This document shows positions 6,829 to 24,186 of a stretch of 64,000 nt of DNA, piece after piece. Each line of letters begins with the position of its first letter. The first letter of the stretch is position 1. The notes below the pieces were generated by a model, which saw only the letters and a list, made by a program, of their open reading frames with translations, was not told the origin of the DNA and made no database searches. A program made the translations under genes and the position numbers. Origin of the DNA: Alcaligenes faecalis (GTDB taxonomy: Bacteria > Pseudomonadota > Gammaproteobacteria > Burkholderiales > Burkholderiaceae_B); NCBI RefSeq assembly GCF_009497775.1, contig NZ_CP031012.1:1-64000 (forward strand), given 5' to 3'.

Positions 6829-7043
6829 GGTTCGGGCTCTTGGTCAGTAATAAAGCGGAAGCGAAAACAGAAGCGTCTTGATGGTAGGCCGGGCACGGGG
6901 AGGAGGCAAATCTTCTGTTCAGAATATTCCTTCAATAACAAGGGGTAATCCACTTTCATGCACGCCTGAAGCCTGGGTCCGGCGTCGTTCTCTGTACACC
7001 TTTTCCCCCTGAAAGCCGCTTCTGTACATTTATCCCTGTTTTT

Positions 7044-7069
7044 GTAAAGTATTTGTGCACGTACTTTAC
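7044..7069. promoter_or_regulatory. Inverted-repeat operator candidate upstream of TRAP operon
   Basis: GTAAAGTA and TACTTTAC form a perfect 8-bp inverted repeat around a 10-base core containing GTGCAC. Bases 7043-7060 (TGTAAAGTATTTGTGCAC) match 16088-16105, in front of the XRE-cupin regulator gene, at 16 of 18 positions. This suggests a shared regulator. Confidence 0.55.
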
Positions 7070-7250
7070 GACCGTCTTTTTCCTGCAAGCTCTTTCCCTC
7101 TGTTTCGTCTTGAGGCTCTGAAACCCTTATGTTTTCAGGTTTTTTGTGGATATTTAATGGAAAACCCCAAGCTTATTTTTTTCAAAAAAATAGAGGTTTA
7201 AAGTAATATCACACTGTTTTTGGGCAAATTTTGTGTACATTTAATGCACG

Positions 7251-7280
7251 AAATTTACACGAGGCGCTGAAATTTACACG
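7251..7280. promoter_or_regulatory. Direct repeats AAATTTACACG before the TRAP operon
   Basis: Two identical 11-base copies lie at 7251-7261 and 7270-7280, spaced 19 bp apart (about two helical turns) and ending 26 bases before dctQ. Their reverse complement begins CGTGTAAA, a word also present twice (16086 and 16107) in the XRE-cupin promoter. They are probably operator half-sites. Confidence 0.5.
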
Positions 7281-7306: not shown

Positions 7307-7789
7307 ATGCAGACCCGTTTCTTGCGTCATGTTTGTAGTTGGATGTTCGGGCTGTCCGCACTGGCCATTCTGGCCTTGATGGCGGTGGCCTTTGCCGATG
7401 TCATGATGCGCAGTTTTGTGCGGCCGCTGTCTGGCGCTTTTGAATTAACCGAGGTGCTGGTCGGGGTGATGGTGTTTGCTGCCCTGCCCTTTGTCACCTT
7501 GAGTGGCAAGCACGTCAAAGTGTCCTTGCTGCGCTCCCTGGTGGGCAAGAACGTGCTGGTGCAAGGTTTGTTGCGCTGGTGCAGCCGTGTGGCGACGGGC
7601 GTGCTGATGGGCTTTCTGGCTTATCACCTGTGGGCCCTGGGTGTGCAGTTTGCACAGACCAATTCCCGCGCTGTTTTTGCGGACCTGCCCCTGGCGCCTT
7701 TTGCCTACTTTGCAGCGGCAATGTGCGCCCTGTCCACGCTGGCCGCACTGTTCAGTGCCGACGGCGACGAGCTCGCTGAGGAAAAATAA
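7307..7789 (+). CDS. dctQ: TRAP transporter small permease (DctQ family)
   Basis: This is the four-helix small membrane subunit of a sodium-driven TRAP importer for organic acids; it pairs with the large permease encoded next. The protein has 160 residues with four hydrophobic segments and the conserved ELTEVLVGVMVF stretch of the family. I chose the ATG at 7307, 4 bases after GGGGAGGAG; an in-frame ATG at 7283 has no ribosome-binding site. The stop codon overlaps the dctM start by one base, indicating coupling. It is the first gene of dctQ-dctM-dctP-hydrolase, behind operator-like repeats. Confidence 0.88.
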   Translation: MQTRFLRHVCSWMFGLSALAILALMAVAFADVMMRSFVRPLSGAFELTEVLVGVMVFAALPFVTLSGKHVKVSLLRSLVGKNVLVQGLLRWCSRVATGVLMGFLAYHLWALGVQFAQTNSRAVFADLPLAPFAYFAAAMCALSTLAALFSADGDELAEEK

Positions 7790-9078
7790 TGACTGTCGTT
7801 GTCACTGGCATGATCATCCTGATCGTGCTCATGATTCTGGAAGTACCCATCGCTGTGGCGATGGCTCTGGTTGGTATTGGTGGCTTTGCCTATGTGGTCG
7901 ATTGGGGCCCGGCCGCCTATATGGCTGCGGAAACCTCGTATCGCCTGGTTCATAACTACAACTTGTCCGTTATCCCGCTGTTCATCCTGATGGGCAATCT
8001 GGTGACACGGGCGGATGTCTCTAAAGATCTGTTCGATCTGGCCTATCGCTTTGTCGGTCATCGTCGCGGCGGTCTGGCCATTGCAACGGTGCTGTCAGGC
8101 GGCATGTTCTCGGCTGTATGCGGCTCCAGCTTTGCGACGACGGCCACCATGGCTCGGGTCGCTTACCCCTCCATGAAGCGCTATGGCTATGCCGATTCCC
8201 TGGCAGGTGGAGCTATTGCATCGGCCGGCACCCTGGGTGCCATGATCCCGCCCAGCGTGCCCCTGATTGTCTATGGCGTGCTGACCAGCAATGACATCGG
8301 CAAGCTGTTCATTGCAGCCGTCTTGCCCGGCATTCTGGGCATGGTGCTGTACATAGCTGCGGTCATGGTGGCCACTCGCATGACACCCGGTTTGGCCGGT
8401 GCGGGCGAGCGCAGCTCCTGGATGGAACGAATCCGCGGTTTGAAGAGTGTTGGCTCGGTCTTGCTGCTGTTCCTGCTGGTCATCGGCGGGATTTACGGCA
8501 ACTTGTTCACGCCAACTGAAGCGGCTGGTATCGGTGCGGTCGGTGCCCTGCTCATCATGATCGCGCGCCGCAAGTTCTCCTGGCAGAGCTTGATGGGTGC
8601 CCTGCGTGAAACCGCCATGACCAGTGCCGCCATCTTCGTGATTATGGTGGGCGCACAAATCTTCACCACCTTTGTAAACGTGGCCGGCTTTACCGCCATG
8701 TTGTCTGACGCGGTCCAGCAATGGGACTTGCCGGGTTGGGGGATTTTGCTGGGCATCGTGGTGCTGTACCTGGTCCTGGGCTGCATGCTGGAAGGCATGT
8801 CCATGCTCTTGCTGACACTGCCCATTGTTTACCCGCTGATCATCAACCAGGGTCTGGACCCGATCTGGTTCGGCATTCTGGTGGTGACCTTGATCGAAGT
8901 GGGCCTGATCACACCGCCCTTGGGGATGAACGTGTTTGTGCTCAATTCAGTGGTGCCGTCCATGTCGCTGGGCACCATTTACCGAGGCGTTATCTATTTT
9001 GTATTGGCTGATCTGTTGCGCCTGGCGCTCTTGATTGGCATCCCTGGCATTGCTTTGTTTCTGCCCTCATTGATGTAA
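7789..9078 (+). CDS. dctM: TRAP transporter large permease (DctM family)
   Basis: This is the 12-helix transport subunit of the TRAP importer. The 429-residue length is typical. Family features are the N-terminal PIAVAMALVG helix, CGSSFATTATMARVAYPSM, GTLGAMIPPSVPLIVYG and LFTPTEAAGIGAVGALL. The C-terminal half has LEGMSMLLLTLPIVYPLI and LITPPLGMNVFVLN. The start overlaps the dctQ stop (TAATG). The partner receptor gene follows 39 bases later, so this is a complete three-component system. Confidence 0.93.
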   Translation: MTVVVTGMIILIVLMILEVPIAVAMALVGIGGFAYVVDWGPAAYMAAETSYRLVHNYNLSVIPLFILMGNLVTRADVSKDLFDLAYRFVGHRRGGLAIATVLSGGMFSAVCGSSFATTATMARVAYPSMKRYGYADSLAGGAIASAGTLGAMIPPSVPLIVYGVLTSNDIGKLFIAAVLPGILGMVLYIAAVMVATRMTPGLAGAGERSSWMERIRGLKSVGSVLLLFLLVIGGIYGNLFTPTEAAGIGAVGALLIMIARRKFSWQSLMGALRETAMTSAAIFVIMVGAQIFTTFVNVAGFTAMLSDAVQQWDLPGWGILLGIVVLYLVLGCMLEGMSMLLLTLPIVYPLIINQGLDPIWFGILVVTLIEVGLITPPLGMNVFVLNSVVPSMSLGTIYRGVIYFVLADLLRLALLIGIPGIALFLPSLM

Positions 9079-9117
9079 GCCATTTTTATTGAATCTGATT
9101 TTCTCGAAGGAATAAGC

Positions 9118-10152
9118 ATGATTAAGCAAGTTAGCAAATGGGTGGGGGTAGCTGCAGTCGCCCTGGCAGCCAGCACCAGCGTGCAGGCACAAAACGTCAC
9201 GCTGCGTTTTTCCAACTGGTTGCCACCTACCCATCCCATGGTGACCGAGATGTTGAACCCCTGGGCCAAGGATGTGGAACAGGCCACGGAAGGACGGGTG
9301 AAGATTCAGGTTCTGCCACCCCTGGGCACCCCTGCTTCGCACTACGATCTGGTGCGCAATGGCGTGGCGGACATGACGATTGGCGTGCACTCCTATACCC
9401 CGGAGCGTTTCAAGCTGACGGAAATGGTTGAACTGCCCATGACGGCCGAGAACGCTCAGGTGAATTCGCTGGCCTACTGGCGCACCTACCAGAAGTACTT
9501 CATGGGCAAGAACGAGCACGCTGGCACCAAGTTGCTGGGCGCGTGGGTTCCCGGTTCTTACCAGTTGTGGACGGCTGCCAAGGTGGACAGCCTGGACAAG
9601 CTGGATGGCACCAAGATCCGTATTCCCGGCGTGCTGGTGGAGCGTATCGCCAAGCTGCTGGGTCTGGTGTCGATTTCCTCGACGCTGACCGAAGCCTATG
9701 ACCAGATTTCGCGCGGCATTATTGATGGCATGTTCCAGAACTACACCACGGTGATCGACTTCAATCTGGCGCGCTTCATGCCGAATCTGTTTGTCCTGCC
9801 CGGTGGTTTCTCCGCTTCCAGCCAGTTCATGGTGGTTAACGAGCGCAGCTGGCAGCGTATCAGCGAGGCCGACCGTGCCGCGATTGATGCCTTGTCGGGT
9901 GAAGCACTGGTCAAGCGTTTCTCGGGTATCTGGCAAAAGAACAATATGGCGGCTTTTGATCGCTTGAGCGCTGAAGGCATCAAGGTGCATCGCATTGAAG
10001 GCGAGCAGCTGGAAGCCATGAAGACCAAGCTGGCGGTGATTGAGCAGCAATGGTTGAGCGAAGCCAAGGGTGTGGAGGCTCAGGAAGCGCTGAACTTCTA
10101 CCGTGCCGAACTGGATCGCGTGGCTGCTGAACTGGGCGTTTCCAAGGACTAA
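9118..10152 (+). CDS. dctP: TRAP transporter periplasmic solute receptor (DctP family)
   Basis: This is the extracytoplasmic binding protein that delivers a carboxylate-containing ligand to the TRAP permeases. It has 344 residues with a Sec signal peptide ending near SVQA (residue 24). The ligand-carboxylate arginine region is seen as LDGTKIRIPG, followed by AYDQISRGIIDGMFQNY, both standard in the family. AAGGAATAAGC precedes the ATG. It is the third gene of the operon. The ligand is unknown; promoter similarity to the 16-kb dehydrogenase module hints at a shared substrate (inference). Confidence 0.9.
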   Translation: MIKQVSKWVGVAAVALAASTSVQAQNVTLRFSNWLPPTHPMVTEMLNPWAKDVEQATEGRVKIQVLPPLGTPASHYDLVRNGVADMTIGVHSYTPERFKLTEMVELPMTAENAQVNSLAYWRTYQKYFMGKNEHAGTKLLGAWVPGSYQLWTAAKVDSLDKLDGTKIRIPGVLVERIAKLLGLVSISSTLTEAYDQISRGIIDGMFQNYTTVIDFNLARFMPNLFVLPGGFSASSQFMVVNERSWQRISEADRAAIDALSGEALVKRFSGIWQKNNMAAFDRLSAEGIKVHRIEGEQLEAMKTKLAVIEQQWLSEAKGVEAQEALNFYRAELDRVAAELGVSKD

Positions 10153-10159
10153 GCCCGTC

Positions 10160-10990
10160 ATGACACAGCATCTGGAAAGTGAATACAACGCCAGTTGGCA
10201 TGTGCCCGATCATAAGGAGATTGTGGCCTCGTGGTCGGGGCTGGCCGAGCAGTTTCGGGCTGGTTCACGCCATGAAGCCAATCAGCCCTATGGCCCGGAA
10301 ACGCGTAATGTCATGGACATTCACTTTCCGGCTGTGGAGCGTCCGGATGCGGCGGTGCTGATGTTTATTCATGGTGGCTATTGGCAATCCATGGACCAGC
10401 GTCGTTTCAGCCATCTGGCACAAGGCAGCGTGGATAACGGCCTGATTACGGTCTTGCCCACTTATACCTTGTGTCCCCAGGCCAGCATGGCGCAGATCAT
10501 TGATGAACTGCGCCTGGCTTGTGCGACGGTCTGGCGACGTTTCAAGCGCCCGATCGTGGTGGCAGGACACTCGGCAGGAGGGCATTTGGCAGCCTGCCTG
10601 CTAGCCACCGACTGGCCCGGTTTTGCCCCGGACCTGCCCGGCGATATGTTGCAGGCGGGCCTGGGCTTGTCCGGCCTGTATGACTTGGAACCGCTGACGC
10701 ATATCGGCATTAATGATGCCTTGCAGCTCAATGCCGAAACCGCCCGAGCCTCCAGCCCCTTGTTTTGGCCTGCCCCTGCACATGGCCAGCCTTTCGAGGC
10801 CTGGGTAGGGGGGGATGAAACCTCGGAGTTTCATCGTCAAAGCCAGGAACTGGCCAAGGCCTGGTCCAGGCAAGGAGTGGATGCGGTGTACCGCAGCTTG
10901 CCGGGAACGAATCACTACAACGTGATCGCGGCCTTGGCCGATAAAGAATCCGTACTGTCAGCGCGTCTGGTTGCGCTGGCAAGGAATTGA
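10160..10990 (+). CDS. Alpha/beta hydrolase of the HGGYW / arylformamidase-like family
   Basis: This 276-residue serine hydrolase has an oxyanion-hole motif HGGYW, a nucleophile elbow GHSAGG and a C-terminal GTNHYN segment holding the probable catalytic His. The HGGYW form is seen in kynurenine formamidases and related esterases/amidases, so hydrolysis of an N-formyl, amide or ester bond is likely; no tryptophan-pathway gene is nearby. I chose the ATG at 10160, 8 bases after the dctP stop. It is the last gene of the TRAP operon and ends at a strong terminator. It may open the imported substrate. Confidence 0.8.
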   Translation: MTQHLESEYNASWHVPDHKEIVASWSGLAEQFRAGSRHEANQPYGPETRNVMDIHFPAVERPDAAVLMFIHGGYWQSMDQRRFSHLAQGSVDNGLITVLPTYTLCPQASMAQIIDELRLACATVWRRFKRPIVVAGHSAGGHLAACLLATDWPGFAPDLPGDMLQAGLGLSGLYDLEPLTHIGINDALQLNAETARASSPLFWPAPAHGQPFEAWVGGDETSEFHRQSQELAKAWSRQGVDAVYRSLPGTNHYNVIAALADKESVLSARLVALARN

Positions 10991-11270: not shown

Positions 11271-11621
11271 ATGACTCAATATCGTATTGAACATTACTTG
11301 ACGGCTGGTACGCAGGAAGATGTGTACATGAAGTGGCTTGGCCGTTTACGTGATCGGAAAACGCAGGTGGCCTTGATCCGACGTGTGAACCGGATGGAAC
11401 ATGGCAATTTTGGCGATCACAGGTTTTGTCGGGACGGTGTTTGGGAGCTTCGCCTGGATGTAGGGCCAGGGCTGCGTGTCTATTACGCTCAAGCCGGACA
11501 GCGGATTGTGCTGTTGCTGTGTGGTGGCAGCAAACGAACGCAGCAGGCGGATATTGATCGGGCGCTTATTTATTGGCAGGACTGGCAGGAGAGAAAAGAC
11601 CATGAGAAGCAGATCACATGA
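11271..11621 (+). CDS. Addiction-module toxin, RelE/HigB-like (phage Gp49-like family)
   Basis: This 116-residue protein belongs to the family of small ribosome-dependent mRNA interferases typified by the Haemophilus HI1419 upstream protein. Supporting features are the conserved FRDR-like positions WLGRLRDRKTQVALIRRVNRM and GVWELRLDVGPGLRVYY, and a C-terminal LLLCGGSKRTQQADI. The toxin gene precedes the antitoxin and overlaps it by 20 bases, the usual order for this family. The C-terminal tail (WQDWQERKDHEKQIT) is somewhat extended. Activity is inferred from family, not shown. Confidence 0.85.
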   Translation: MTQYRIEHYLTAGTQEDVYMKWLGRLRDRKTQVALIRRVNRMEHGNFGDHRFCRDGVWELRLDVGPGLRVYYAQAGQRIVLLLCGGSKRTQQADIDRALIYWQDWQERKDHEKQIT

Positions 11622-11892
11622 TGAGGCTATGGCCGATCTGTATCGCAGTGATCCGGCCTTGGCATTAGAGACTATCAATCAGATTTTGGAGGACGGGGAT
11701 CAGGCCGAACTCCTGATCGTGTTGCGTCAATTGGCACAGGCTTTTGGTGGTGTGCAGGCAGTTGCCGAGCAGGCGCAGTTAAATCCGACGCAGCTTTACA
11801 GGACCTTGTCACCCAAGGGGAATCCGGCCTTGAGCAGCCTGACGGCCATTTTGAAGGCAATGGGCCTGCGTCTTGCGGTGCAGCCTTTGTAG
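11602..11892 (+). CDS. Addiction-module antitoxin (HI1420-type HTH protein)
   Basis: This 96-residue HTH protein pairs with the toxin ahead of it. It shows the family pattern: acidic N-terminal region (HDEAMADLYRSDPALA), then an HTH (AVAEQAQLNPTQLYRTLSPKG) and the tail LTAILKAMGLRLAV. I chose the ATG at 11602, inside the end of the toxin gene, which matches the typical overlap. It is expected to neutralise the toxin and repress the shared promoter. Confidence 0.85.
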   Translation: MRSRSHDEAMADLYRSDPALALETINQILEDGDQAELLIVLRQLAQAFGGVQAVAEQAQLNPTQLYRTLSPKGNPALSSLTAILKAMGLRLAVQPL

Positions 11893-12659: not shown

Positions 12660-13844
12660 TTAGAACTTGTGGTTAAAGGCCACGTACAGCTGCGTAGCAC
12701 GTGCGTCTGGCAAGAAGGTCAGGTTCTGTGCATAGCCGCCGTATACGTACACCATGGTGCGCTTGGACAGGTCGTACTGGTAACCCACCGAGTACACGTG
12801 CTGACGTTTGGTTTGCGCATTGGGGCCGGTAATGCTCTCTGGCAAGCTGCGTGGATCAGCCATGTTCCAGCCCAGCGAGAAGCGCCCACCGGCCAGGGGT
12901 GTGGTCACCCCAAAGGAGTAGGAGTTGATCCGCAAGCCTGGAACGGCCGCAAAGGATGGCAGCGGGTTGGTGACGTTGCTCAGGCCAAAGACCTGGGTGG
13001 CGAACAGACCATCGCGAGTCTGGCCGATACCGGCAAACACTTTGACGACATCAAAGTCGTAGCTGGCCGCACCCGCCCAGGCGCTGACACGGGTGGAGTC
13101 GGCAGCAGGACGTGCACCGCTGGCAGACTGTTTATTGATGTGCAGTTGGTCGTACACCAGAGCGGCACTCAAGGGGCCGTTGTTGTAGCGCAGGCCGGTG
13201 GTCACTGCACGGATATTGTTGTCCTTGCTGTTGGTGCCATCCGGGTGCTCGCTATCCCAGTGCTGCTTGCCGTTGATGTTGAAGGAATAGCCAATACCGA
13301 ACTGAAAGCCGTTCAGCGTGGGCGATTGGTATTGGATCTGGTTGTCGTAACGCACCGTGTTGGCCACGCTGAAGGTCGATCCAAAGCCTACAATCCCGCC
13401 GCCGCCACCCAAGGGGTGAGCCATGCTGAAGTATTCGGTCGGCATATTGTTTTTCAGGCCGAAATCCACCTGCCCCCAGTCCTCGCCTGCCAGACCCAGT
13501 GTGGCCTGACGGCCGAACAGGCGACCACCCTGGATGGATTGGCCGGTGGGCACATCAAAGCCGCTTTCCAGCACAAACTTGGCTTGCAGCCCGTTGCCCA
13601 GATCTTCCGTGCCACGGATACCCCAGCGGCTGCCAAAGTGCACCCCGCTGTTGGGGCCCAGACGCGAGGTCTTGAACTCGGTAGCATCGGTTCGATCACG
13701 GCTGTAGCTGCTATTGCCTTTGTTCATGTCGTAGCCAACACCCGTGTCCAGAATCCCGTACAGGGTGATGGATGCGTGGGCTGCCGAGCTGGCCATCAGT
13801 AAAAACAGGGCCGTACCGACAGCGGTTTTATTTCTTGTTTTCAA
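12660..13844 (-). CDS. Gram-negative general porin
   Basis: This is a 394-residue outer-membrane trimeric beta-barrel porin of the betaproteobacterial type. A signal peptide ends at AAHA, after which the mature protein begins SITLYGILDTGVGYD, the family hallmark. FLESGFD-like, GLKNNMPTEYF and the C-terminal AFNHKF with terminal Phe fit barrel insertion. I chose the TTG at 13844 because it follows AGGAGAAGAGGA; the in-frame ATG at 13928 would add an implausible hydrophobic leader before the signal peptide. It lies downstream of the DapA-family gene on the same strand with hairpins between, so expression may be partly separate. Confidence 0.9.
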   Translation of the reverse strand: MKTRNKTAVGTALFLLMASSAAHASITLYGILDTGVGYDMNKGNSSYSRDRTDATEFKTSRLGPNSGVHFGSRWGIRGTEDLGNGLQAKFVLESGFDVPTGQSIQGGRLFGRQATLGLAGEDWGQVDFGLKNNMPTEYFSMAHPLGGGGGIVGFGSTFSVANTVRYDNQIQYQSPTLNGFQFGIGYSFNINGKQHWDSEHPDGTNSKDNNIRAVTTGLRYNNGPLSAALVYDQLHINKQSASGARPAADSTRVSAWAGAASYDFDVVKVFAGIGQTRDGLFATQVFGLSNVTNPLPSFAAVPGLRINSYSFGVTTPLAGGRFSLGWNMADPRSLPESITGPNAQTKRQHVYSVGYQYDLSKRTMVYVYGGYAQNLTFLPDARATQLYVAFNHKF

Positions 13845-13929
13845 TTCCTCTTCTCCTTCGTGGTAGATAAAAAAAGCGTGCAGCAATCCCCCTACCGCAA
13901 GTGATGCAGCAAGAAACAGGCGCAACAAA

Positions 13930-15892: not shown

Positions 15893-15920
15893 GAAGTCTC
15901 CGTTTATGCCCGTACAGGGG

Positions 15921-15933: not shown

Positions 15934-15952
15934 TGTGCAATAAAACTGCACA
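15934..15952. promoter_or_regulatory. TGTGCA-N7-TGCACA inverted repeat
   Basis: The arms lie at 15934-15939 and 15947-15952. The core word AAACTGCAC recurs in the palindrome at 16135-16159. TGCACATAATTTAC at 15947-15960 also loosely resembles the reverse of the shared 18-base element. Confidence 0.4.
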
Positions 15953-16085: not shown

Positions 16086-16115
16086 CGTGTAAAGTGCTTG
16101 TGCACACGTGTAAAG
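16086..16115. promoter_or_regulatory. Direct repeats CGTGTAAAG flanking GTGCAC
   Basis: CGTGTAAAG occurs at 16086-16094 and 16107-16115, 21 bp apart, with GTGCACA between. Bases 16088-16105 match 7043-7060 before the TRAP operon at 16 of 18 positions. Confidence 0.55.
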
Positions 16116-16134: not shown

Positions 16135-16159
16135 GAAACTGCACGGTTTGTGCAGTTTC
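16135..16159. promoter_or_regulatory. 25-base perfect palindrome, likely operator
   Basis: Arms GAAACTGCAC and GTGCAGTTTC are perfect 10-bp inverted copies around GGTTT, about 95 bases before the XRE-cupin gene. It is the best candidate for the autoregulatory site of that regulator. Confidence 0.6.
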
Positions 16160-16252
16160 GGAACATGCATTTGCACACCATTAGGCTGCCTCTCTTACCC
16201 TATAATTCGTGAAGTTCGGCTACACATAACTACACGAACATAGGACTTCAGA

Positions 16253-16789
16253 ATGATAGGCAAACGACTTCATGAGCTGCGCGTGGCCAAGGGTCTGTCC
16301 CTGCGGGAGCTGGGTCAGATGGTCAAGCTCTCGCCCACGCTGCTCAGTCAGGTAGAACGCGGTGTCACCACACCCAGTTTGACGACCCTGCGCAAGCTCA
16401 GCGGGATCTTTGGGGAATCCATGTCTTCCTTGTTCATGGATACCAGCAAGGGGCCGTCGGTATGGATCAGCCGCCCAGGTGAACGCATGTTGTTGCGTGG
16501 CCCGCGTGGGGGCGTCGTCTATGAACGGCTCACCCGTGGCAATGGCGAGATGGAAGTGTTCCGGGCTGTTTACGAAGTTGGTCAACAGTCCATGGACGAT
16601 ATGTCGCACCCGTCCCTGGAAAGTGTCTATGTGGTCCGGGGTGTCATTACTGCAGAGATTGATAAGGTAAGTTTTGACGTCAAAGCTGGCGAGAACATCA
16701 GCTTTGATGCACGCCAAAGCCACCGTTACCTGAACCGGGGAACGGAGGAAGCGGAAATCATCATGTCGATTACCCCGCCCGTCCCCTGA
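16253..16789 (+). CDS. XRE-family regulator with C-terminal cupin sensor
   Basis: This is a 178-residue transcription regulator. Residues about 1-60 form an HTH_XRE domain (RLHELRVAKGLSLRELGQMV, LSPTLLSQVERGVTTPSLTTL). Residues about 105-178 form a small cupin (HPSLESVYVVRGVITAEID, GENISFDARQSHRYLNRG). This architecture is known for regulators of amine, polyamine and amino-acid catabolism (PuuR/MuuR-like), where the cupin senses a small ligand. It heads the dehydrogenase operon (43 bases to the next gene) and faces the VOC-RidA/DapA genes. Strong palindromes lie in its promoter. Confidence 0.9.
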   Translation: MIGKRLHELRVAKGLSLRELGQMVKLSPTLLSQVERGVTTPSLTTLRKLSGIFGESMSSLFMDTSKGPSVWISRPGERMLLRGPRGGVVYERLTRGNGEMEVFRAVYEVGQQSMDDMSHPSLESVYVVRGVITAEIDKVSFDVKAGENISFDARQSHRYLNRGTEEAEIIMSITPPVP

Positions 16790-16832
16790 TTTGTCTTGAT
16801 CCGGGGCGAACGGTGTACCGCATCACTACACT

Positions 16833-18062
16833 ATGAGCCCCAAGCCTGATTCTCTTTCCCCCCTACCTGCCTGTGCCCCTGGCTCCCTGCCCGCCCGGAC
16901 GGATGTCCTGATCATTGGCGGCGGGCTGCTGGGCTGTGCCGCTGCCTATTATCTGAGCCTGGCAGGGGTGCCTGTGACCTTGATCGAACAAGGTGAGCTG
17001 GGCCTGCAGGCATCCAGCCAGAATGCGGGCAGCCTGCATTTCCAGATGGAATACCGCATGATCGAGGCGGGCCTGGAGGCCAGCAAACGCGCCTTGCAAG
17101 CCATGCCCTTGCATGTGGACGCCATTGCCCGCTGGCGGGCTCTGGAAGATCAGTTGGGTGTGTCGGTGGGTGTGCGCCAGAAAGGTGGTTTCATGCTGGC
17201 GGAAACGGCACAGCAAGCCCAGGTTCTGGAACAAAAAAGCCGTCTGGAAAACCAGGCCGGGCTGAAGGTGGAGCTACTGGACCGGGCCGCATTACAAGCC
17301 AAAGCGCCCTATTTGTCGGACTCCGTGCTGATGGGGGCTTTTTGTGCTGACGAAGGCAAGGCCGACCCGCGCCGTGCCAGTCTGGCCCTGGCCGCCGCCG
17401 CACGTGCTCTGGGGGCACAGATCGTCAGCCAATGCCAGGTTGTGGACTTGAAGCGTGTGGGTTCTGACTGGCAGGCCCAAGTGCTCAGTGGCGAGCAATG
17501 TCGCAGCAAGCAGGTTCTGATTGCTGCCGGTGTCTGGTCCGGGCGCATTGCGCAAATGACAGGTTCGCAGTTACCCGTCAGCCCGATTGCTCTGACCATG
17601 ACGGCCACCGCGCGCACCGCTCCCTTCATGGATTACCTGTTCCAGCACGTGGGGCGACGCCTCTCCTTGAAGCAAACGGCAGAAGGCACGGTGCTGATTG
17701 GCGGCGGTTGGCCTTCCAAACTGCATCATCGTAATGGGATCGCGGATCTGGAACGCAAACCCAGCCTGAACCTGGATTCTTTGCAACGCAGCGTGCATAC
17801 CGCCTGCAGCGTGGTCCCCCAACTGGCCTCCTTGCCCGTGTTGCGCTCCTGGACCGGGGTGACCTCTTTGGTGTCGGACCAATTGCCTTTGCTAGGTCAG
17901 GTGCCGCACCGCCCCGGTTTGTTCATTGCCACCGGCGGAGCCGCATTCACCCTGGGTTTGACCTACGCCCATTTGCTGGTGGCGCAGATGCTGGGCCAGC
18001 CGCCCAGTCTGGATATCTCTGCCTATGATCCTGATCGCTTTAGGAGTTTGACCTTTGCCTGA
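16833..18062 (+). CDS. FAD-dependent D-amino-acid oxidase-type subunit (HcnC/OoxB/D-hydroxyproline dehydrogenase beta-like)
   Basis: This 409-residue DAO-family flavoprotein has a Rossmann FAD motif near residue 25 (VLIIGGGLLGCAAAYYLS) and the conserved LIEQGELGLQASSQNAG stretch. The C-terminal ATGGAAFTLGLTYA closes the FAD site. Together with the next two genes it makes the alpha-beta-gamma set of HcnABC, opine oxidase or D-hydroxyproline dehydrogenase, in which this subunit oxidises the amine. Operon position: after the XRE-cupin regulator, with the [2Fe-2S] gene overlapping by 8 bases. The neighbouring DapA-family lyase and RidA fit an imine-producing dehydrogenase. Confidence 0.85.
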   Translation: MSPKPDSLSPLPACAPGSLPARTDVLIIGGGLLGCAAAYYLSLAGVPVTLIEQGELGLQASSQNAGSLHFQMEYRMIEAGLEASKRALQAMPLHVDAIARWRALEDQLGVSVGVRQKGGFMLAETAQQAQVLEQKSRLENQAGLKVELLDRAALQAKAPYLSDSVLMGAFCADEGKADPRRASLALAAAARALGAQIVSQCQVVDLKRVGSDWQAQVLSGEQCRSKQVLIAAGVWSGRIAQMTGSQLPVSPIALTMTATARTAPFMDYLFQHVGRRLSLKQTAEGTVLIGGGWPSKLHHRNGIADLERKPSLNLDSLQRSVHTACSVVPQLASLPVLRSWTGVTSLVSDQLPLLGQVPHRPGLFIATGGAAFTLGLTYAHLLVAQMLGQPPSLDISAYDPDRFRSLTFA

Positions 18063-18345
18063 CGCACAACGCTTGCTGCACAAACGCCAGCGCTTCGAGC
18101 CTGCCGTGGTGACTATTAATGGTCATGAGACCGCCTGTTATCTCGGTGAAACGGTGGCGACAGTCTTGCTGGCGGCTGGAGTCGGTGCCTTTCGCCGTAC
18201 CGCCAGTGGTGCACCCCGTCGCCCGGTGTGCAATATGGGTGTGTGCTTTGACTGCATTGTGACCATTGACGGTATGCAGGGGCAGCGCAGTTGCATGACC
18301 ACGGTGCGTAGCGGTATGCAGATCGAGGTAGCCGACCATGTCTGA
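18055..18345 (+). CDS. [2Fe-2S] small subunit (HcnA/gamma-like)
   Basis: This 96-residue ferredoxin-like protein has cluster ligands Cys59, Cys64, Cys67 and Cys80 (CNMGVCFDC, then QRSC). It is the electron-transfer subunit of a three-part dehydrogenase with the FAD proteins on either side. The start is a TTG at 18055, with AGGAG about 8 bases upstream. It overlaps the previous stop, and its end overlaps the next gene by 8 bases, so translation of all three is coupled. Confidence 0.88.
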   Translation: MPDAQRLLHKRQRFEPAVVTINGHETACYLGETVATVLLAAGVGAFRRTASGAPRRPVCNMGVCFDCIVTIDGMQGQRSCMTTVRSGMQIEVADHV

Positions 18346-19774
18346 CATTCTGGATTTATTGATTGTGGGGGCAGGTCCGGCAGGACTGTCTGCGGCCCGT
18401 ATTGCCAGCTCACAGGGTTTAAGCGTGGCCGTGCTGGACGAGCAGCCGCGCTTTGGCGGGCAGGTGTTCAGGCAGGCGCCCGAGGAGTTTGCAGCGGCGG
18501 ATCCGGACTCCATGCACACCTATCCTTTTTCACACAGCTTGTTTGAATGGGCGCGTGGTACCACGGCCGTGCAGTGGCATTCCAGTACCCTGGTGTGGGG
18601 GATTTTTGACGATCCGCAGGATGAGCATGTGCGTCAGATCGGCATTGCTGGCCCACAGGGGGCTTCCGTGCTGAAAGCCCGCCGAGTGCTGATTGCGACC
18701 GGGGCCTATGACTTGCCCGTGGCCTTTCCCGGCTGGACCTTGCCGGGCGTGCTGAGCGCGGGTGGGGTGCAAACCATGATCAAGAGCCAAAGCCTGATGC
18801 CGGGGCAACGTTTTTTGCTGGTGGGCGGCCATCCCTTGCTGCTTTTGGTCGCAGAGCTGTTGCTGGATGCCGGTGCACAGATTGCCGAAGTTGCCATTGC
18901 TCGCAGCTTGCCGTCCATGAAGGAAATGCTGCGCGCTACACGTGCTCTACCGGGACAGTCCAGACTGGTTAAGCAACTGCTGGCGATTTTGCTGAAACTG
19001 CGTCGTCATGGCGTGCCTTTGCGCTTTGCAACGGGTATAGAGCGTGCCCATGGGGACGAGTCCGTTCAGGCTGCCACGCTATGTAAAGTGGATCAAAACT
19101 GGCACGCCATCGCGGGTACACAAAGACGTGTAGAGGTAGACACGGTGGTCGTGGGTTATGGCCTGCTCGCCAGTACGGAACTGGCACGTCAGGCTGGCTG
19201 TGCCGTGAGGTGGGACAGCGCTGCTGGCGGCTGGCTGGTACAGCATGATGACAGGCTGCACAGTACTCAGTCAGGCGTGCTGGTTGCTGGAGAGCAGACG
19301 GGCATTGCAGGGGCATTCAATGCTCATCTGCAAGGTGAACTGGCCGCGTGGCAATGTGTGCTGGAATTGCAGCCGCCAACTGCCGTGACAGAGATAGAAA
19401 AAACCATTGCTGACCTGCAACTGCGCCTGGGTCGTAATCGTCGTTTTACTGACACCGTTATTACCTTGTCGGCCCCCAAGCTGGAGGCATTGGCCCAGGC
19501 GATCACCCCGGATACCGTGGTGTGCCGCTGCGAGGAAGTCACGGCACAGGAGGTGAACCAGTTTCTGGACGCCCATCCTTATGTGGCGGACATCAACAGC
19601 ATCAAACTGGCCTGCCGTACCGGAATGGGGATGTGTCAGGGGCGCTATTGCCAGCACACCGTGGCGCAGATGCTGGCCAGCCGTTTGGGTAGGGGCATAG
19701 ATCAGGTTGGAATTTACAAGGCCCAGGCGCCTGTGAAGCCTGTGCCGGTAGCGGCGCTGGCGGGAATGGAGTAA
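18338..19774 (+). CDS. FAD/NAD(P)-binding oxidoreductase with BFD-like iron-sulfur domain (HcnB/OoxA/alpha-like)
   Basis: This 478-residue subunit has an N-terminal FAD motif (LLIVGAGPAGLSAARIA), a second nucleotide-binding fold in the middle and the C-terminal FAD loop LVAGEQTGIAGAF. It ends with a BFD-type [2Fe-2S] segment (VVCRCEEVT, then CRTGMGMCQGRYC). This layout is the large subunit of HcnABC, opine oxidases and heteromeric D-hydroxyproline dehydrogenases. No hydroxyproline epimerase or semialdehyde dehydrogenase is nearby, so the substrate could equally be an opine or another secondary amine. It is the last gene before the terminator. Confidence 0.86.
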   Translation: MSDILDLLIVGAGPAGLSAARIASSQGLSVAVLDEQPRFGGQVFRQAPEEFAAADPDSMHTYPFSHSLFEWARGTTAVQWHSSTLVWGIFDDPQDEHVRQIGIAGPQGASVLKARRVLIATGAYDLPVAFPGWTLPGVLSAGGVQTMIKSQSLMPGQRFLLVGGHPLLLLVAELLLDAGAQIAEVAIARSLPSMKEMLRATRALPGQSRLVKQLLAILLKLRRHGVPLRFATGIERAHGDESVQAATLCKVDQNWHAIAGTQRRVEVDTVVVGYGLLASTELARQAGCAVRWDSAAGGWLVQHDDRLHSTQSGVLVAGEQTGIAGAFNAHLQGELAAWQCVLELQPPTAVTEIEKTIADLQLRLGRNRRFTDTVITLSAPKLEALAQAITPDTVVCRCEEVTAQEVNQFLDAHPYVADINSIKLACRTGMGMCQGRYCQHTVAQMLASRLGRGIDQVGIYKAQAPVKPVPVAALAGME

Positions 19775-19850: not shown

Positions 19851-20525
19851 TCAGGCCGGCTGTTCCAGTATTTCCTGCAGGCGGCTCAGCAGTTTTTCAC
19901 TGGCGTTGTGCATATGTCGCTCGCAGATGGCGAGTGCCCCAGCTTCGTCGCCAGAGGAAATGGCCGCAGCCAGTTCTTCATGTTCGTCCCAGATGGACAG
20001 ACGCTGTTCTGCCGATTGCAGTACCGCCCCCATGACACGCCGCAGGTGTACCCAATGAACCTGTGCACTCTCGGCGATCATGGGGTTGCCCGACGCTTCG
20101 TAAATCGCTTTGTGAAAGGCTTCATCGGCTTCGATCATGGCGCGTACGTCATGACCACGAGCAACCTTGCGACCCAGACGGATCAGGTCCGGGTCCAGTA
20201 CGGCACTTTGGCGTGCCGCCAGCTTGGTTGCCAACGCTTCCAAGGCGCCCCGCACCTGGTACAGATGCCCGATATGTTCCAGATCCAGCGGGGCCACCAT
20301 GACGCCCCGCCCTTCGGCGTCTTGCAGCAATCCATCTTTCTTCAGGAGCTGGATGGCTTGCAACACGGGCGAGCGTGACACTTTGAGCTGCTCGGCAATG
20401 TCTTCCTGAGTGATTCGCGAGCCGGGGGCCAGGGAGCCGTCGCTGATGGCATCGAGCAGGATGCGGTAGACCTCGTCTACATAGTGTGGACGGGCCTGCA
20501 ACTTACCGGAAAGCTTGGCATGCAT
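19851..20525 (-). CDS. GntR family regulator, FCD subfamily
   Basis: This 224-residue repressor has an N-terminal winged helix (VDEVYRILLDAISDGSLAPG, EDIAEQLKVSRSPVLQAIQLL). Its C-terminal all-helical FCD ligand domain carries the metal/ligand residues DEAFHKAIYEASGN and HEELAAAISSGD. I chose the ATG at 20525 rather than 20558. It is the last gene of the minus-strand block behind the TRAP permeases. FCD regulators often bind GTATAC-centred palindromes; such sites precede the KARI/Rieske operon and the VOC-RidA gene, so it may control one or both (inference). Confidence 0.88.
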   Translation of the reverse strand: MHAKLSGKLQARPHYVDEVYRILLDAISDGSLAPGSRITQEDIAEQLKVSRSPVLQAIQLLKKDGLLQDAEGRGVMVAPLDLEHIGHLYQVRGALEALATKLAARQSAVLDPDLIRLGRKVARGHDVRAMIEADEAFHKAIYEASGNPMIAESAQVHWVHLRRVMGAVLQSAEQRLSIWDEHEELAAAISSGDEAGALAICERHMHNASEKLLSRLQEILEQPA

Positions 20526-20547
20526 GAGGTCTGGAACTCCGCTACAA

Positions 20548-20584
20548 ACAAAAAACAAGTTAAGGCCGCAGCCTGACTGCGGCC
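20548..20584 (-). terminator. Hairpin between TRAP large permease and GntR gene
   Basis: GGCCGCAG pairs with CTGCGGCC around CCTGA. On the minus strand it is followed by a T-rich stretch (TTAACTTGTTTTTTG), consistent with full or partial termination. Confidence 0.6.
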
Positions 20585-20595
20585 CTGGGTTTACA

Positions 20596-22365
20596 TCAGG
20601 GCGTGGTCCGCATGGATTGCAAGAGCGCCGCCATGGGGTCCTGGTCTGACGTCGCTTGTACCTCGAACGGGTTGCTTAGCGGGTCGTCTGCCTGTATTGC
20701 TCCTGGGCTGAGCATGGGGGCGGGACGGTTCAGCTGGAGCAGGATTTCTTCATCGCTCAGGCTGACTGTTTTATGCAAGCCTCCCGTTACCAGTTGCGGA
20801 TAGGCAATCACAATACCCACCACCAGCAATTGTAGTACGACGAAGTAGGCTGAGCCCTTCCAGATCTGCTGGGTACGAACCCTTGGAATAGTTTGCTGGC
20901 TAACGGAATCTACATAGTCGGATCGAGGTGCCACGCTGCGCAAATACAACAAGGCAAAACCGAACGGGGGTGTCAGAAAGGAGGTTTGCAGGACCAGAGC
21001 AATCACGATACCGAACCAGATCAGATCAATGCCCAGGCTGTTGGCGACGGGTGCCAGTAAGGGGACCACAATGAATGCAATTTCAAAAAAGTCCAGGAAC
21101 ATGCCCAGCACAAAGATGATGGCGCTGACGGCAATGACAAAACCCAGTTCGCCGCCGGGAATGGCATCAAACAGGTGCTCTACCCACAAGTGGCCGTCTG
21201 CGGCACTGAATGTGAAGCTGAAGACGGTGGAGCCGATTAGGATGAACATCACGAAAATAGCCAGCTTGGCGGTATTTTCCAGAGCTTGATTGAGCAAGGA
21301 CCAGTTCAGGCGTTTGCGTATCAAGGCCAGTATCAGCGCGCCAATTGCACCCATGGCCCCGCCTTCTGTTGGTGTGGCAATTCCCAGGAATATGGTGCCA
21401 AGGACCAGAAAGATCAGGATGACTGGTGGGATCAGGGCGAAGACAAAGCGTTCGGCCAGTTGCGAGAGCAGTCCCCAGCCTGTCACGCGATTTACCGTCG
21501 CAAACAGCAGCGCACTCAGGGAGGCGACAACCAGGGCGGTGATGGCCACTTGATCCGTGGGGGCCTGAGCCGGCTGGGAAAAGACCTGGGCCATGACTTC
21601 GTTGTGCAGGCCTGCCCAGGTAAACCCGATGAAGGCGCACAGCAGGACCAACATGCCCAGCGACCGTCGTCCGCTTGCACCAGTGGCCGTCACCTGACTT
21701 CTGGCCTGTTCTGGCAGTGCTGGCATCCAGGAGGGGCGGAACAAGGCCAGAACAATGACGAATGTAATGTAGATCACCAGCAGCAAGAGACCGGGGCCCA
21801 GTGCCGCTGCGTACATGTCTCCGACTGATCGACCCAATTGATCGGCCATCACAATCAGGACCAGAGACGGCGGCAACGCCTGTACCAGAGCACCGGAGGC
21901 GGTGATGACGCCCGTAGCAATTTCCGGCTTGTAGCCGTAGCGCAGCATGACGGGCAAGGAGATCAGGCCCATGGAGATCACCACCGCCGATGTGACGCCG
22001 GTGGAGGCGGCCAGCAGGGCCCCTACCAGGACAACCGAAACGGCCAGGCCACCACGGACAGCACCAAAGAGCTGGCCCATGGTTTCAAGCAGGTCTTCTG
22101 CCATGCCCGACCGTTCCAGGATGATGCCCATTAGCGTGAAAAAGGGGATGGCCAGCATGGTTTCGTTTTGCATGATGCCAAAGATGCGCAGCGGCAAAAC
22201 CTGGAACAGATTGGTCGGAAACAGGTCCAGTGCAATGCCTAGTACGCCAAATACCAGGCCGGTGGCGGCCAGCCCGAAGGCCACAGGAAAGCCGGTCAGC
22301 AAGAGCACGATCAGGCTCAGGAACATGATGGGGACGAAGTAGTCCGTGATAAAGGTGGCAATCAT
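20596..22365 (-). CDS. TRAP large permease, FcbT3/TakM-like (long form)
   Basis: This 589-residue permease belongs to the large-insert subfamily of TRAP transporters known for chloroaromatic, mannitol-type or 2-oxoacid uptake. Normal DctM proteins are about 425-430 residues. The extra length is an insert around residues 215-290 and a hydrophilic tail of about 80 residues after the last membrane helix (from roughly GGLHKTVSLSDEEI). Family features are LLAASTGVTSAVVISMGLISLP, GIATPTEGGAMGAIGAL and SFLTPPFGFALLYLRS. It overlaps the small permease by 4 bases. The matching receptor is encoded at 28852 on the other strand. Confidence 0.88.
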   Translation of the reverse strand: MIATFITDYFVPIMFLSLIVLLLTGFPVAFGLAATGLVFGVLGIALDLFPTNLFQVLPLRIFGIMQNETMLAIPFFTLMGIILERSGMAEDLLETMGQLFGAVRGGLAVSVVLVGALLAASTGVTSAVVISMGLISLPVMLRYGYKPEIATGVITASGALVQALPPSLVLIVMADQLGRSVGDMYAAALGPGLLLLVIYITFVIVLALFRPSWMPALPEQARSQVTATGASGRRSLGMLVLLCAFIGFTWAGLHNEVMAQVFSQPAQAPTDQVAITALVVASLSALLFATVNRVTGWGLLSQLAERFVFALIPPVILIFLVLGTIFLGIATPTEGGAMGAIGALILALIRKRLNWSLLNQALENTAKLAIFVMFILIGSTVFSFTFSAADGHLWVEHLFDAIPGGELGFVIAVSAIIFVLGMFLDFFEIAFIVVPLLAPVANSLGIDLIWFGIVIALVLQTSFLTPPFGFALLYLRSVAPRSDYVDSVSQQTIPRVRTQQIWKGSAYFVVLQLLVVGIVIAYPQLVTGGLHKTVSLSDEEILLQLNRPAPMLSPGAIQADDPLSNPFEVQATSDQDPMAALLQSMRTTP

Positions 22366-22955
22366 CGTGCACCCTCCTGTGCGGTCGATAGTGCTTGGGC
22401 GGGCACCTGAATAGGCGTGTCCTGGGCATTATCTTCAGCAATGCAGTCCGGCCCTTTGCCTGTCAGGAACAGAATACGTTTGACCAGCTCGGCCAAGCCC
22501 TGAAGCAACAGCAGGCTAAAGCCGGCAGGAATCAGCAGATAGGCGGGCCAGCGTACAAGCCCGCCGGCATTGCCGGACATTTCACCCGAATGCCAGGCGG
22601 CGGTGAAGAAGCCCCAGCTCAGGTTGATGACAAAAATACAGAACGGGATCAGGACGACAACAATCCCGGCGATGTCGACCAGGTTGCGTCCCCGCGCCCC
22701 CAGGCGGGTGGAAACAAAGTCGATACGCACATGGCTGTTATGCAGAAATGCGTAGCCTCCTCCCAAGAGAAAGACAGCCGCATACAGGTACCACTGAGCT
22801 TCCAGCATGCCGTTGGAGCTCAGGTCAAAGGCCTTGCGAGTGATGGCGTTGCTGGCGCTCAGAATGGTGGTGGCCAGCAATAGCCATTTGATGATGAATC
22901 CGATACAGCGGTTCAGGTGGTCTATTCCCCCCACCATGGTTTTCAATGCAGTCAT
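22362..22955 (-). CDS. TRAP small permease, FcbT2-like
   Basis: This 197-residue small TRAP subunit has four hydrophobic segments, the conserved EAQWYLYAAVFLLGGGYAF and HNSHVRIDFVSTRLGARG. A 30-residue hydrophilic tail follows the last helix. I chose the ATG at 22955; upstream in-frame codons to 23066 lack a membrane or ribosome-binding signal. It is translationally coupled to the large permease (ATGA overlap). It sits 169 bases after the reductase gene, in an interval holding a short CCTGGC/GCCAGG hairpin near 23095. Confidence 0.86.
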   Translation of the reverse strand: MTALKTMVGGIDHLNRCIGFIIKWLLLATTILSASNAITRKAFDLSSNGMLEAQWYLYAAVFLLGGGYAFLHNSHVRIDFVSTRLGARGRNLVDIAGIVVVLIPFCIFVINLSWGFFTAAWHSGEMSGNAGGLVRWPAYLLIPAGFSLLLLQGLAELVKRILFLTGKGPDCIAEDNAQDTPIQVPAQALSTAQEGAR

Positions 22956-23124
22956 GTTTGTCTCCGCGAATATTGTTGTGTTCGTCGTTGTGCTGCCGGG
23001 GAGTGTTTGATGGCGGCCGTGTGCCAGCCGCGTTGTAGCAGGTGCTGTGGTGACTCCTTGGGCCATGAGCGTGCCCGAAGTAAATGGGGTGTGCCCTGGC
23101 GGGAGCCAGGACCAGGAGATGGCC

Positions 23125-24135
23125 TTACAGGTCCAGAACCAGTACGCCCGAGCGTGCGCGCGAAACGCAGGCGGTCAGGCAATGGCTTTGCTCGTCGGGA
23201 CTGAGGATGTAGTCCTGGTGATCAACATCCCCTTGCAGGTAGTTGATGCGGCATGTGCCACACAGGCCCGATACGCAGGAGGTGGCAATAGGCACACCGG
23301 CTTGCGTCAAGGCATCGCTCAGGGATTGATCGGGAGCAACCTCAATGCACTGGCCGGTACTGGCAATTTGCGCCACGAAGGCACCGGGAGGCAGGGTATT
23401 GGCATTAGGGGCAGGTTCAGGTGCCTTGAAGTGTTCGCAATGCACGGAACCGGCAGGCCAGTGCGAGCTGGCCTGCGCACAGGCCTGCATGAAGCCGGCT
23501 GGGCCGCAGTAATACACGTGGGTGCCTTCAGCTGCATTGGCAAGCAAGTCCTGCAGGTTCAGACCTTGTGCGGGATTGCCGTTGTCCAGATGCAGATGCA
23601 GGCGGCCTTGCTCTTGCCATGTGAGCAGTTCGGAGCCAAAGGCGGCCGTATCGTGGCTGCGAGTGCAGTAATGCAATTCAAAGGGCTGGCCCTGCGATTC
23701 CAGAAAGTGGGCCATCGCCTTGATGGGGGTGATGCCTATCCCCCCGGCCAGCAGGATCGAGCGGCGTGCGTTCGGGTCCAGTCGGAAATGATTTCGAGGC
23801 GTGCTGACGGTGACTTGCTGCTGGACCTGCAGGGCGTCGTGCAAGGTGCGTGAGCCGCCTCGTCCATTGACATCGCGCAGGACAGCAATGACGTAACGGT
23901 GACGCTCATGAGGCGGGTTGCACAGCGAGTATTGGCGGATCAAGCCGGGTTGAATATGTACGTCTATATGGGCACCGGCCTCGAAGGCGGGCAACTCGCC
24001 ACCCTGAGGACAGCTGAGTTCATAAGAATTGATGCCTTGTGCTTCGTAGCGGATTTGCCGGATCCGCAGTGACAGCAGCCCGTCCGGGTTGGTAGCCGCC
24101 TGGACGGGAGTGGCGGGTTCTGCAATGGCGTTCAT
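23125..24135 (-). CDS. Phthalate dioxygenase reductase-like oxidoreductase (FMN/NAD/[2Fe-2S])
   Basis: This 336-residue electron-transfer partner has a flavin-binding RQYSLCNPP motif, an NAD-binding domain (SILLAGGIGITPIKAMAH, YYCGPAGFMQA) and a C-terminal plant-type [2Fe-2S] domain. The cluster cysteines are seen in TSCVSGLCGTC with a later CLTAC. This order (FMN-NAD-FeS) is that of phthalate dioxygenase reductase and VanB. I chose the ATG at 24135, preceded by CGGAG. It follows the Rieske oxygenase gene by 51 bases and surely feeds electrons to it. Confidence 0.93.
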   Translation of the reverse strand: MNAIAEPATPVQAATNPDGLLSLRIRQIRYEAQGINSYELSCPQGGELPAFEAGAHIDVHIQPGLIRQYSLCNPPHERHRYVIAVLRDVNGRGGSRTLHDALQVQQQVTVSTPRNHFRLDPNARRSILLAGGIGITPIKAMAHFLESQGQPFELHYCTRSHDTAAFGSELLTWQEQGRLHLHLDNGNPAQGLNLQDLLANAAEGTHVYYCGPAGFMQACAQASSHWPAGSVHCEHFKAPEPAPNANTLPPGAFVAQIASTGQCIEVAPDQSLSDALTQAGVPIATSCVSGLCGTCRINYLQGDVDHQDYILSPDEQSHCLTACVSRARSGVLVLDL

Positions 24136-24186
24136 GGCGCTCTCCGTATGGGGCACCCGCCCCTTTGGAGCGGGTGCGACAGGCGA

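Follow-up and report, generated by a model that had tools for sequence, protein, structure and literature searches.

Regulators that combine an XRE-type domain with a cupin domain are described in Pseudomonas mostly as repressors of neighbouring uptake or catabolic genes, acting through palindromic sites (PMC7901475, PMC12724383). ErfA, PsdR, and PauR of Pseudomonas aeruginosa have the same domain order as the Alcaligenes XRE-cupin protein considered here and, as published, mostly small local regulons of uptake or catabolic genes, palindromic sites, and autoregulation; for PauR, which has a site upstream of its own gene, autoregulation is reported to be likely (PMC7901475, PMC10965056). PsdR has sites on both sides of its own gene, as is the case here, but its described palindrome is TTAAG-N5-CTTAA, whereas here it is GTRNA-N7-TGCAC in at least five copies, with one target 9 kb away (PMC7901475, PMC10965056). 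PsdR is also reported to bind a non-palindromic site at the distant lasR gene (PMC7901475, PMC10965056), and therefore such regulators need not be purely local.

The dbu operon of Pseudomonas putida is similar in content, as the XRE-cupin-type repressor DbuR is described over a D-amino-acid oxidase, a Rid2 protein, and a transporter, with its palindrome overlying the predicted −10 box (PMC12724383). The DbuR palindrome is 20 bp long, has another sequence, and is reported as one protected stretch, whereas a different palindrome with at least five sites is present here, and the genes are those for a three-subunit dehydrogenase, a VOC-RidA fusion, a DapA homologue, and a TRAP importer (PMC12724383). 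In the account of DbuR no effector was identified, and D-amino acids appeared to induce independently of this regulator (PMC12724383), so that release by a pathway metabolite cannot be taken for granted. NceR of Neisseria gonorrhoeae, termed an XRE-cupin regulator in PMC12724383, is similar in having several bound stretches, three being protected at one promoter, but unlike the repressor proposed here it is reported as an activator of ompA, linked to iron through Fur (PMC10470515). The exceptions seen in DbuR, PsdR, and NceR make the direction of control and the inducer less certain. PuuR (NF007408) is the best NCBIfam model for the XRE-cupin protein and matches residues 2-175, but with 56.8 bits against a cutoff of 211 it is not the same protein. 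The regulator and its candidate operator probably belong to a kind already known, the XRE-cupin local repressors. No paper on this particular regulator or operator was among the matches listed from open-licence literature.

The window, i.e., the whole 64-kb stretch of DNA that was analysed, starts with dnaA. Three transcription units are relevant: 7307-10990 on the plus strand, 15892-12660 on the minus strand, and 16253-19774 on the plus strand. Their genes and the candidate sites before them are as follows, with matrix ranks referring to the Achromobacter matrix described below.

7043..7061, plus strand: TRAP distal candidate operator TGTAAA-GTATTTG-TGCACG (first 18-mer), core kept in 5/5 carriers, matrix rank 2
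7062..7069, plus strand: TACTTTAC, right arm of the symmetric context, TACTTTAC in 3/5 carriers and TAGTTTAC in 2/5
7232..7250, plus strand: TRAP proximal candidate operator TGTGTA-CATTTAA-TGCACG, core kept in 5/5 carriers, matrix rank 4
7307..7789, plus strand: dctQ, small TRAP membrane subunit, Pfam PF04290, ORF listed from 7283
7789..9078, plus strand: dctM, large TRAP membrane subunit, Pfam PF06808, TIGR00786 above cutoff
9118..10152, plus strand: dctP, TRAP substrate-binding protein, Pfam PF03480, nearest solved chain 4p56
10103..10990, plus strand: alpha/beta hydrolase at the end of the TRAP operon, Pfam PF07859 and PF20434, ORF as listed
12660..13928, minus strand: outer-membrane porin, downstream of DapA on the same strand, Pfam PF13609
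14011..14943, minus strand: DapA-family lyase or aldolase, Pfam PF00701
14978..15892, minus strand: VOC-RidA fusion protein, Pfam PF00903 and PF01042, ORF listed to 15940
15934..15952, no strand assigned: VOC-RidA promoter candidate operator TGTGCA-ATAAAAC-TGCACA, matrix rank 1, 16/17 core columns invariant
16088..16106, plus strand: XRE distal candidate operator TGTAAA-GTGCTTG-TGCACA (second 18-mer), in 4/5 carriers, matrix rank 6
16135..16159, no strand assigned: second palindrome GAAACTGCAC-GGTTT-GTGCAGTTTC, 19/19 core columns invariant in 5/5 carriers
16209..16225, plus strand: XRE proximal (autoregulatory) candidate operator GTGAA-GTTCGGC-TACAC, matrix rank 3, 17/17 columns invariant
16253..16789, plus strand: XRE-cupin regulator of 178 aa, the proposed binder, Pfam HTH_3 and Cupin_2
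16833..18062, plus strand: FAD-dependent amine or amino-acid dehydrogenase subunit (DAO), Pfam PF01266
18055..18345, plus strand: small subunit, probably of [2Fe-2S] type, named from its position and cysteine pattern, start not fixed
18338..19774, plus strand: second dehydrogenase subunit, OoxA/SoxA-like with Fer2_BFD, Pfam PF07992, PF17806, and PF04324

The likely dctQ start, ATG 7307, preceded by the RBS-like GGGGAGGAG, and the VOC-RidA start, ATG at 15892, were picked by eye. In the XRE-cupin protein, PF01381 covers residues 6-58 and PF07883 residues 105-171, both above cutoff. PDB matches of the DAO subunit are glycine oxidase, L-amino acid deaminase, and dimethylglycine dehydrogenase, and those of the hydrolase include kynurenine formamidase; the small dehydrogenase subunit had no match in the NCBIfam search. 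The families present, such a dehydrogenase together with RidA and a DapA homologue, suggest that the module breaks down an amino- or imino-acid-like compound. The chain nearest to DctP, 4p56, we take to be a mandelate-binding protein; no paper in support of mandelate as the DctP ligand was among those listed in a literature search. The VOC-RidA fusion seems to be rare, with six protein clusters at E<=1e-40 among 6344 candidates and both domains in four of them. Overlapping genes of Gp49-like and HI1420-type antidote proteins, likely a toxin-antitoxin pair, lie at 11271-11892 between the hydrolase and GFA-family genes.

According to the original prediction, the TRAP and XRE-cupin promoters share an 18-bp element. 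The elements TGTAAAGTATTTGTGCAC (7043-7060) and TGTAAAGTGCTTGTGCAC (16088-16105) lie where it had placed them, agree at 16 of 18 positions, and are probably real. The whole window holds 734 pairs of 18-mers matching at this level (overlapping runs and true repeats counted), so the agreement alone proves little. Between the two intergenic stretches such a match is unusual: one was observed, and first-order-Markov re-draws of both stretches gave at least one in 3 of 200 cases. In the 4.16-Mb genome TGTAAAGTRYTTGTGCAC has three places at up to three mismatches, namely both window copies with none and a third elsewhere with three; the reversed control has five places at up to three mismatches and none at up to two. 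The word CGTGTAAA, said to occur twice at each locus, does so (7254 and 7273 on the minus strand, 16086 and 16107 on the plus strand, and one more place at 42838), but at TRAP the pair is separated from the shared element by about 200 bp, and its copy at 7273 is altered in three of five species.

The conserved unit proved to be other than expected. The symmetric context described around the elements is not the conserved part, as the right arm of the 27-bp symmetry varies between genomes and the XRE copy carries a direct repeat instead, the first copy of which is missing in G009. The symmetric 27-mer, poorly kept across the five Alcaligenes genomes with the module (carriers), was rejected as the functional unit; TACTTTAC at 7062..7069 is possibly an extra half-site. 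As judged from sequence comparison, what is conserved is a 17-bp imperfect palindrome, GTRNA-N7-TGCAC, whose half-sites are spaced by 12 bp. Such spacing suits a dimer of Cro/CI-type helix-turn-helix domains. Two sites had been proposed, and both are present, but there are at least five copies of the unit in the two gene-free stretches, at 7044, 7233, 15935, 16089, and 16209; a weaker dyad match at 15912 was left out of this count. The TRAP proximal site ends about 57 bp upstream of the likely DctQ ATG, and the XRE proximal site lies 44 bp upstream of the XRE ATG, directly after a TATAAT box (16201-16206) seen by eye.

In the alignment of the five carriers, the 7044 dyad GTAAA-N7-TGCAC is invariant in 17/17 columns, with 21/40 and 20/40 in its flanks. 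Invariant core columns number 17/17 at 7233 and 16209, 16/17 at 15935, and 12/17 at 16089, and the flanks of these four copies are partly well conserved as well. The 16089 copy is decayed in G009, where just its right part is left. The distance between 7044 and 7233 is 189 bp in all five carriers, though the intervening DNA has diverged. The palindrome at 16135-16159 has N5 between TGCAC and GTGCA, a half-site spacing unlike that of the operator, and may be a second binding mode or the site of another regulator. TGCAC-N5-GTGCA was rejected as the common operator because it suits this palindrome and misfits the other sites; at up to two mismatches in 14 genomes, it had 6-15 places per genome among the matches listed, against 5-15 for the reversed control, which is mostly background.

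The same dyad recurs in four genomes of one genus (G064, G077, G085, and G102), which we take to be Achromobacter. Their XRE-cupin protein is 55-58% identical and is followed on one strand by VOC, RidA, DapA, DAO, and OoxA matches; VOC and RidA are not encoded in a single open frame there, with one internal stop in three genomes and two separate matches in G085. Within 260 bp upstream of the regulator, the dyad GT..A-N7-T..AC lies at about −223, −190, and −48, and additionally at −81 in G085; three of these loci also have a match at −134, with other half-sites. The −48 site, present in all four loci, is the positional counterpart of 16209 in the window. A matrix was made of ten distinct sites of the four loci, leaving out the −134 and −81 matches. 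On the 64-kb window it placed 15935, 7044, 16209, and 7233 at ranks 1-4 and 16089 at rank 6. Six of its ten best places are in the two stretches (one, 16128, outside the five), which 1 of 300 column-permuted matrices equalled; the matrix sites were chosen with a template seen in both genera, and therefore this is not a blind test and part of the agreement is built in. When 13,312 combinations of half-site and spacer were searched without bias, GTACA-N7-TGTAC was first and GTGCA-N7-TGCAC third in three Achromobacter stretches; in the two Alcaligenes stretches alone the operator dyad was not in the top 12, and A/T-rich dyads led.

On two Embleya plasmids (L107 and L108), genes of an XRE-cupin protein (40% identity), DapA, DAO, and OoxA stand in a row, with no tblastn match to VOC-RidA and no listed annotation. 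In both plasmids GTTCA-N7-TGAAC stands at −87, and the 300 bp upstream of the regulator contain no other perfect N7 dyad; spacers of 5-8 were tried, and L107 has also one perfect N5 dyad at −271. Alcaligenes and Achromobacter share an identical recognition-helix stretch, TLLSQVER, in a region that is almost the same, while the Embleya sequence differs (AGMLSQLE). The same dyad geometry with both letters and helix changed fits a co-evolving pair of regulator and operator. Homologues of the XRE-cupin protein exist also in Massilia, Duganella, and Serratia, at 64-69% identity, and in actinobacteria, and at E<=1e-35 no orthologue besides its own was found among 399 sampled genomes of the order.

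The 18-mer is likely an operator of the XRE-cupin protein (16253-16789), which would repress the importer, the pathway, and itself until an inducer binds. The prediction that one regulator, the XRE-cupin protein, controls both the TRAP importer with its hydrolase and the dehydrogenase/VOC-RidA/DapA genes is supported, as the element is rare and is kept with the module. The operator copies, at least five, would serve three units: the TRAP importer and hydrolase; VOC-RidA, DapA, and porin; and XRE-cupin with the three-subunit dehydrogenase. When substrate is lacking, an XRE-cupin dimer would sit on the promoter-proximal copies (16209, 7233, and 15935) and block RNA polymerase, while the distal copies (7044 and 16089) would strengthen repression cooperatively. 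A pathway metabolite would then bind the cupin domain, the protein would release the DNA, and importer and enzymes would be switched on together. Repression with release by a metabolite is judged the most likely mode because the proximal copies sit where polymerase should bind. Scans for sigma-70 promoters found no consensus promoter, and therefore the overlap with promoters rests on boxes seen by eye.

Activation by the same protein, in the manner of NceR on ompA in Neisseria, is unlikely. It would agree with the distal copies 7044 and 16089 lying upstream of the expected polymerase position, with the outcome of the promoter scans, and with the reported activity of NceR (PMC10470515), but the position of proximal copy 16209 after TATAAT, and of the two Embleya copies after −10-like boxes also seen by eye, argues against it, and the Pseudomonas members studied genome-wide are described as inhibitors (PMC7901475). 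A looped form of co-repression is given equally little weight: cupin-linked oligomers would hold the TRAP pair together, and the same protein could connect the TRAP promoter with the XRE/VOC promoters over 9 kb, silencing importer and pathway as a single unit, with the operator array as the inherited part and the SSF or TRAP transporter as the swappable one. The 189 bp between 7044 and 7233 equal 18 turns at 10.5 bp, a spacing that would suit looping and is only suggestive.

The spread of the sites within and between genomes was assessed with two patterns. GTAAAGTN5TGCAC has 12 exact matches in 24 genomes, all at XRE-cupin or TRAP promoters; it is present in eight of nine carriers (all except G085) and in none of 15 genomes without a regulator orthologue, and its reversed control has three matches. 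TGTRHAN7TGCACR, written from four of the window's sites, has four exact matches in its own genome, all in two stretches within 10 kb of each other, a count that applies to one fixed pattern. The element is thus not common in the genome. In ten Alcaligenes genomes this second pattern marks 19 distinct module sites in the five carriers, and outside the module three sites in carriers (none in the own genome) and five in non-carriers; the reversed control has 20 matches, about two per genome, and therefore single matches elsewhere mean little. In 14 Achromobacter genomes it finds nine distinct sites in the regulator's intergenic region of the four carriers (2, 2, 3, and 2). Elsewhere there are 11 in these carriers (11 of 20) and 17 in the ten non-carriers, with five for the reversed control, so the pattern is not specific in Achromobacter, though the intergenic region was recovered in 4/4 carriers. 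Eleven of those 28 sites are TGTGCACTTTTAGTGCACG, which occurs in seven of the 14 Achromobacter genomes, carriers and non-carriers (e.g., G077:C2:433383, 1748461, 1754489, and 4578687), and may belong to a mobile element.

A global regulator encoded elsewhere, or a nucleoid protein, binding all the sites would fit the A/T-rich flanks and the many other places of the pattern in Achromobacter. Such a regulator would be expected to have other targets, and so the exclusivity counts against it: the own-genome consensus has zero exact matches outside the two stretches, and GTAAAGTN5TGCAC is absent in 15/15 genomes without a regulator orthologue. This explanation is considered very unlikely.

The distribution of the module points to the XRE-cupin protein as well. 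Orthologues of XRE-cupin (99-100% identity), DctP (97-100%), and VOC-RidA (93-100%) are carried by the same five of ten Alcaligenes genomes (G000, G004, G007, G008, and G009), and the XRE-cupin protein is 99-100% identical in three Alcaligenes records. Of 61 relatives, five have a DctP match at 97-100% identity, and the rest reach at most 46%. In three non-carriers the XRE-cupin matches are paralogues of 33-34%, which are present in carriers too. The exact 18-mer pattern has two copies in four carriers and one in G009; outside carriers there are 14 matches with two mismatches, one in the non-carrier G006 and 13 in other genera. Conservation in related species, on which the original prediction also depended, was found: the element is kept in Alcaligenes carrying the module and recurs in another genus beside the same regulator. 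The GntR/FCD regulator (19851-20558, minus strand), whose gene adjoins the module in the window, is a highly improbable binder. TGTGCACA-like cores (TGTGCA) resemble operators of the GntR/FCD family, but the gene is present at 96-97% identity in three of five Alcaligenes non-carriers without the element and, at E<=1e-30, in just one of four Achromobacter carriers, on another contig. It was rejected because its distribution does not follow that of the element. That the 18-mer match is chance or a functionless remnant of a duplication is hardly credible: 734 equally good pairs in the window speak for it, but the TRAP copy is invariant in 5/5 species within diverged sequence, GTAAAGTN5TGCAC is exclusive genome-wide, and the element recurs in Achromobacter.

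The module place was read in three of the five Alcaligenes non-carriers (G001, G002, and G003). The flanking genes adjoin in G003, other DNA with a GFA-family gene occupies the place in G002, and in G001 (L104 6157-6545) fragments of DAO and OoxA lie between pseudouridine synthase and GntR genes, so that the block was lost at least there. TRAP operon and pathway lie in one block, absent in the three non-carriers read, and therefore finding them together does not count as separate evidence that they function jointly. The strongest reason to assign the TRAP operon to the pathway is that the transporter differs while the operator stays. In Achromobacter locus L099 (G077) the element occupies 8904-8920, 11 bp upstream of where a divergent gene pair has its start codon; the pair codes for a small, probably membrane, protein and an SSF-family (sodium:solute) symporter unrelated to the TRAP importer, the nearest NCBIfam model being MctP, below cutoff. 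The annotation of the pair covers L099; in the other three loci the element has the same distance from the regulator and the sequence is alignable. No DctP match at E<=1e-30 was found in the four Achromobacter carrier genomes. The importer beside the regulator thus appears to be of SSF type in Achromobacter and of TRAP type in Alcaligenes, while regulator and enzymes keep the operator.

The pathway had been described as showing no transport of its own. This holds in part: a porin (12660-13928) follows DapA, and a second TRAP system (20596-23066) is next door, though it is found without the module. The region 19851-25692 of the window codes for the GntR regulator, this second TRAP (DctM and DctQ), a reductase, and a Rieske protein; no DctP was found among the neighbouring ORFs tested. 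Three Alcaligenes genomes lacking the module retain GntR, DctM, DctQ, and reductase of this region. The second TRAP was rejected as the module's transporter, since it and the GntR gene are kept in these three non-carriers.

With these results, a catabolic module of Alcaligenes and Achromobacter gains a candidate regulator and a defined operator, and in Alcaligenes also a candidate importer. A route to the substrate of the module is opened, as the compound bound by DctP is expected to be the inducer or a precursor of it. The locus is a clean case in which the operator stayed and the transporter gene behind it differs between genera. If the reading of the regulator is true, a nutrient importer and a probable digestion pathway would be switched on together.
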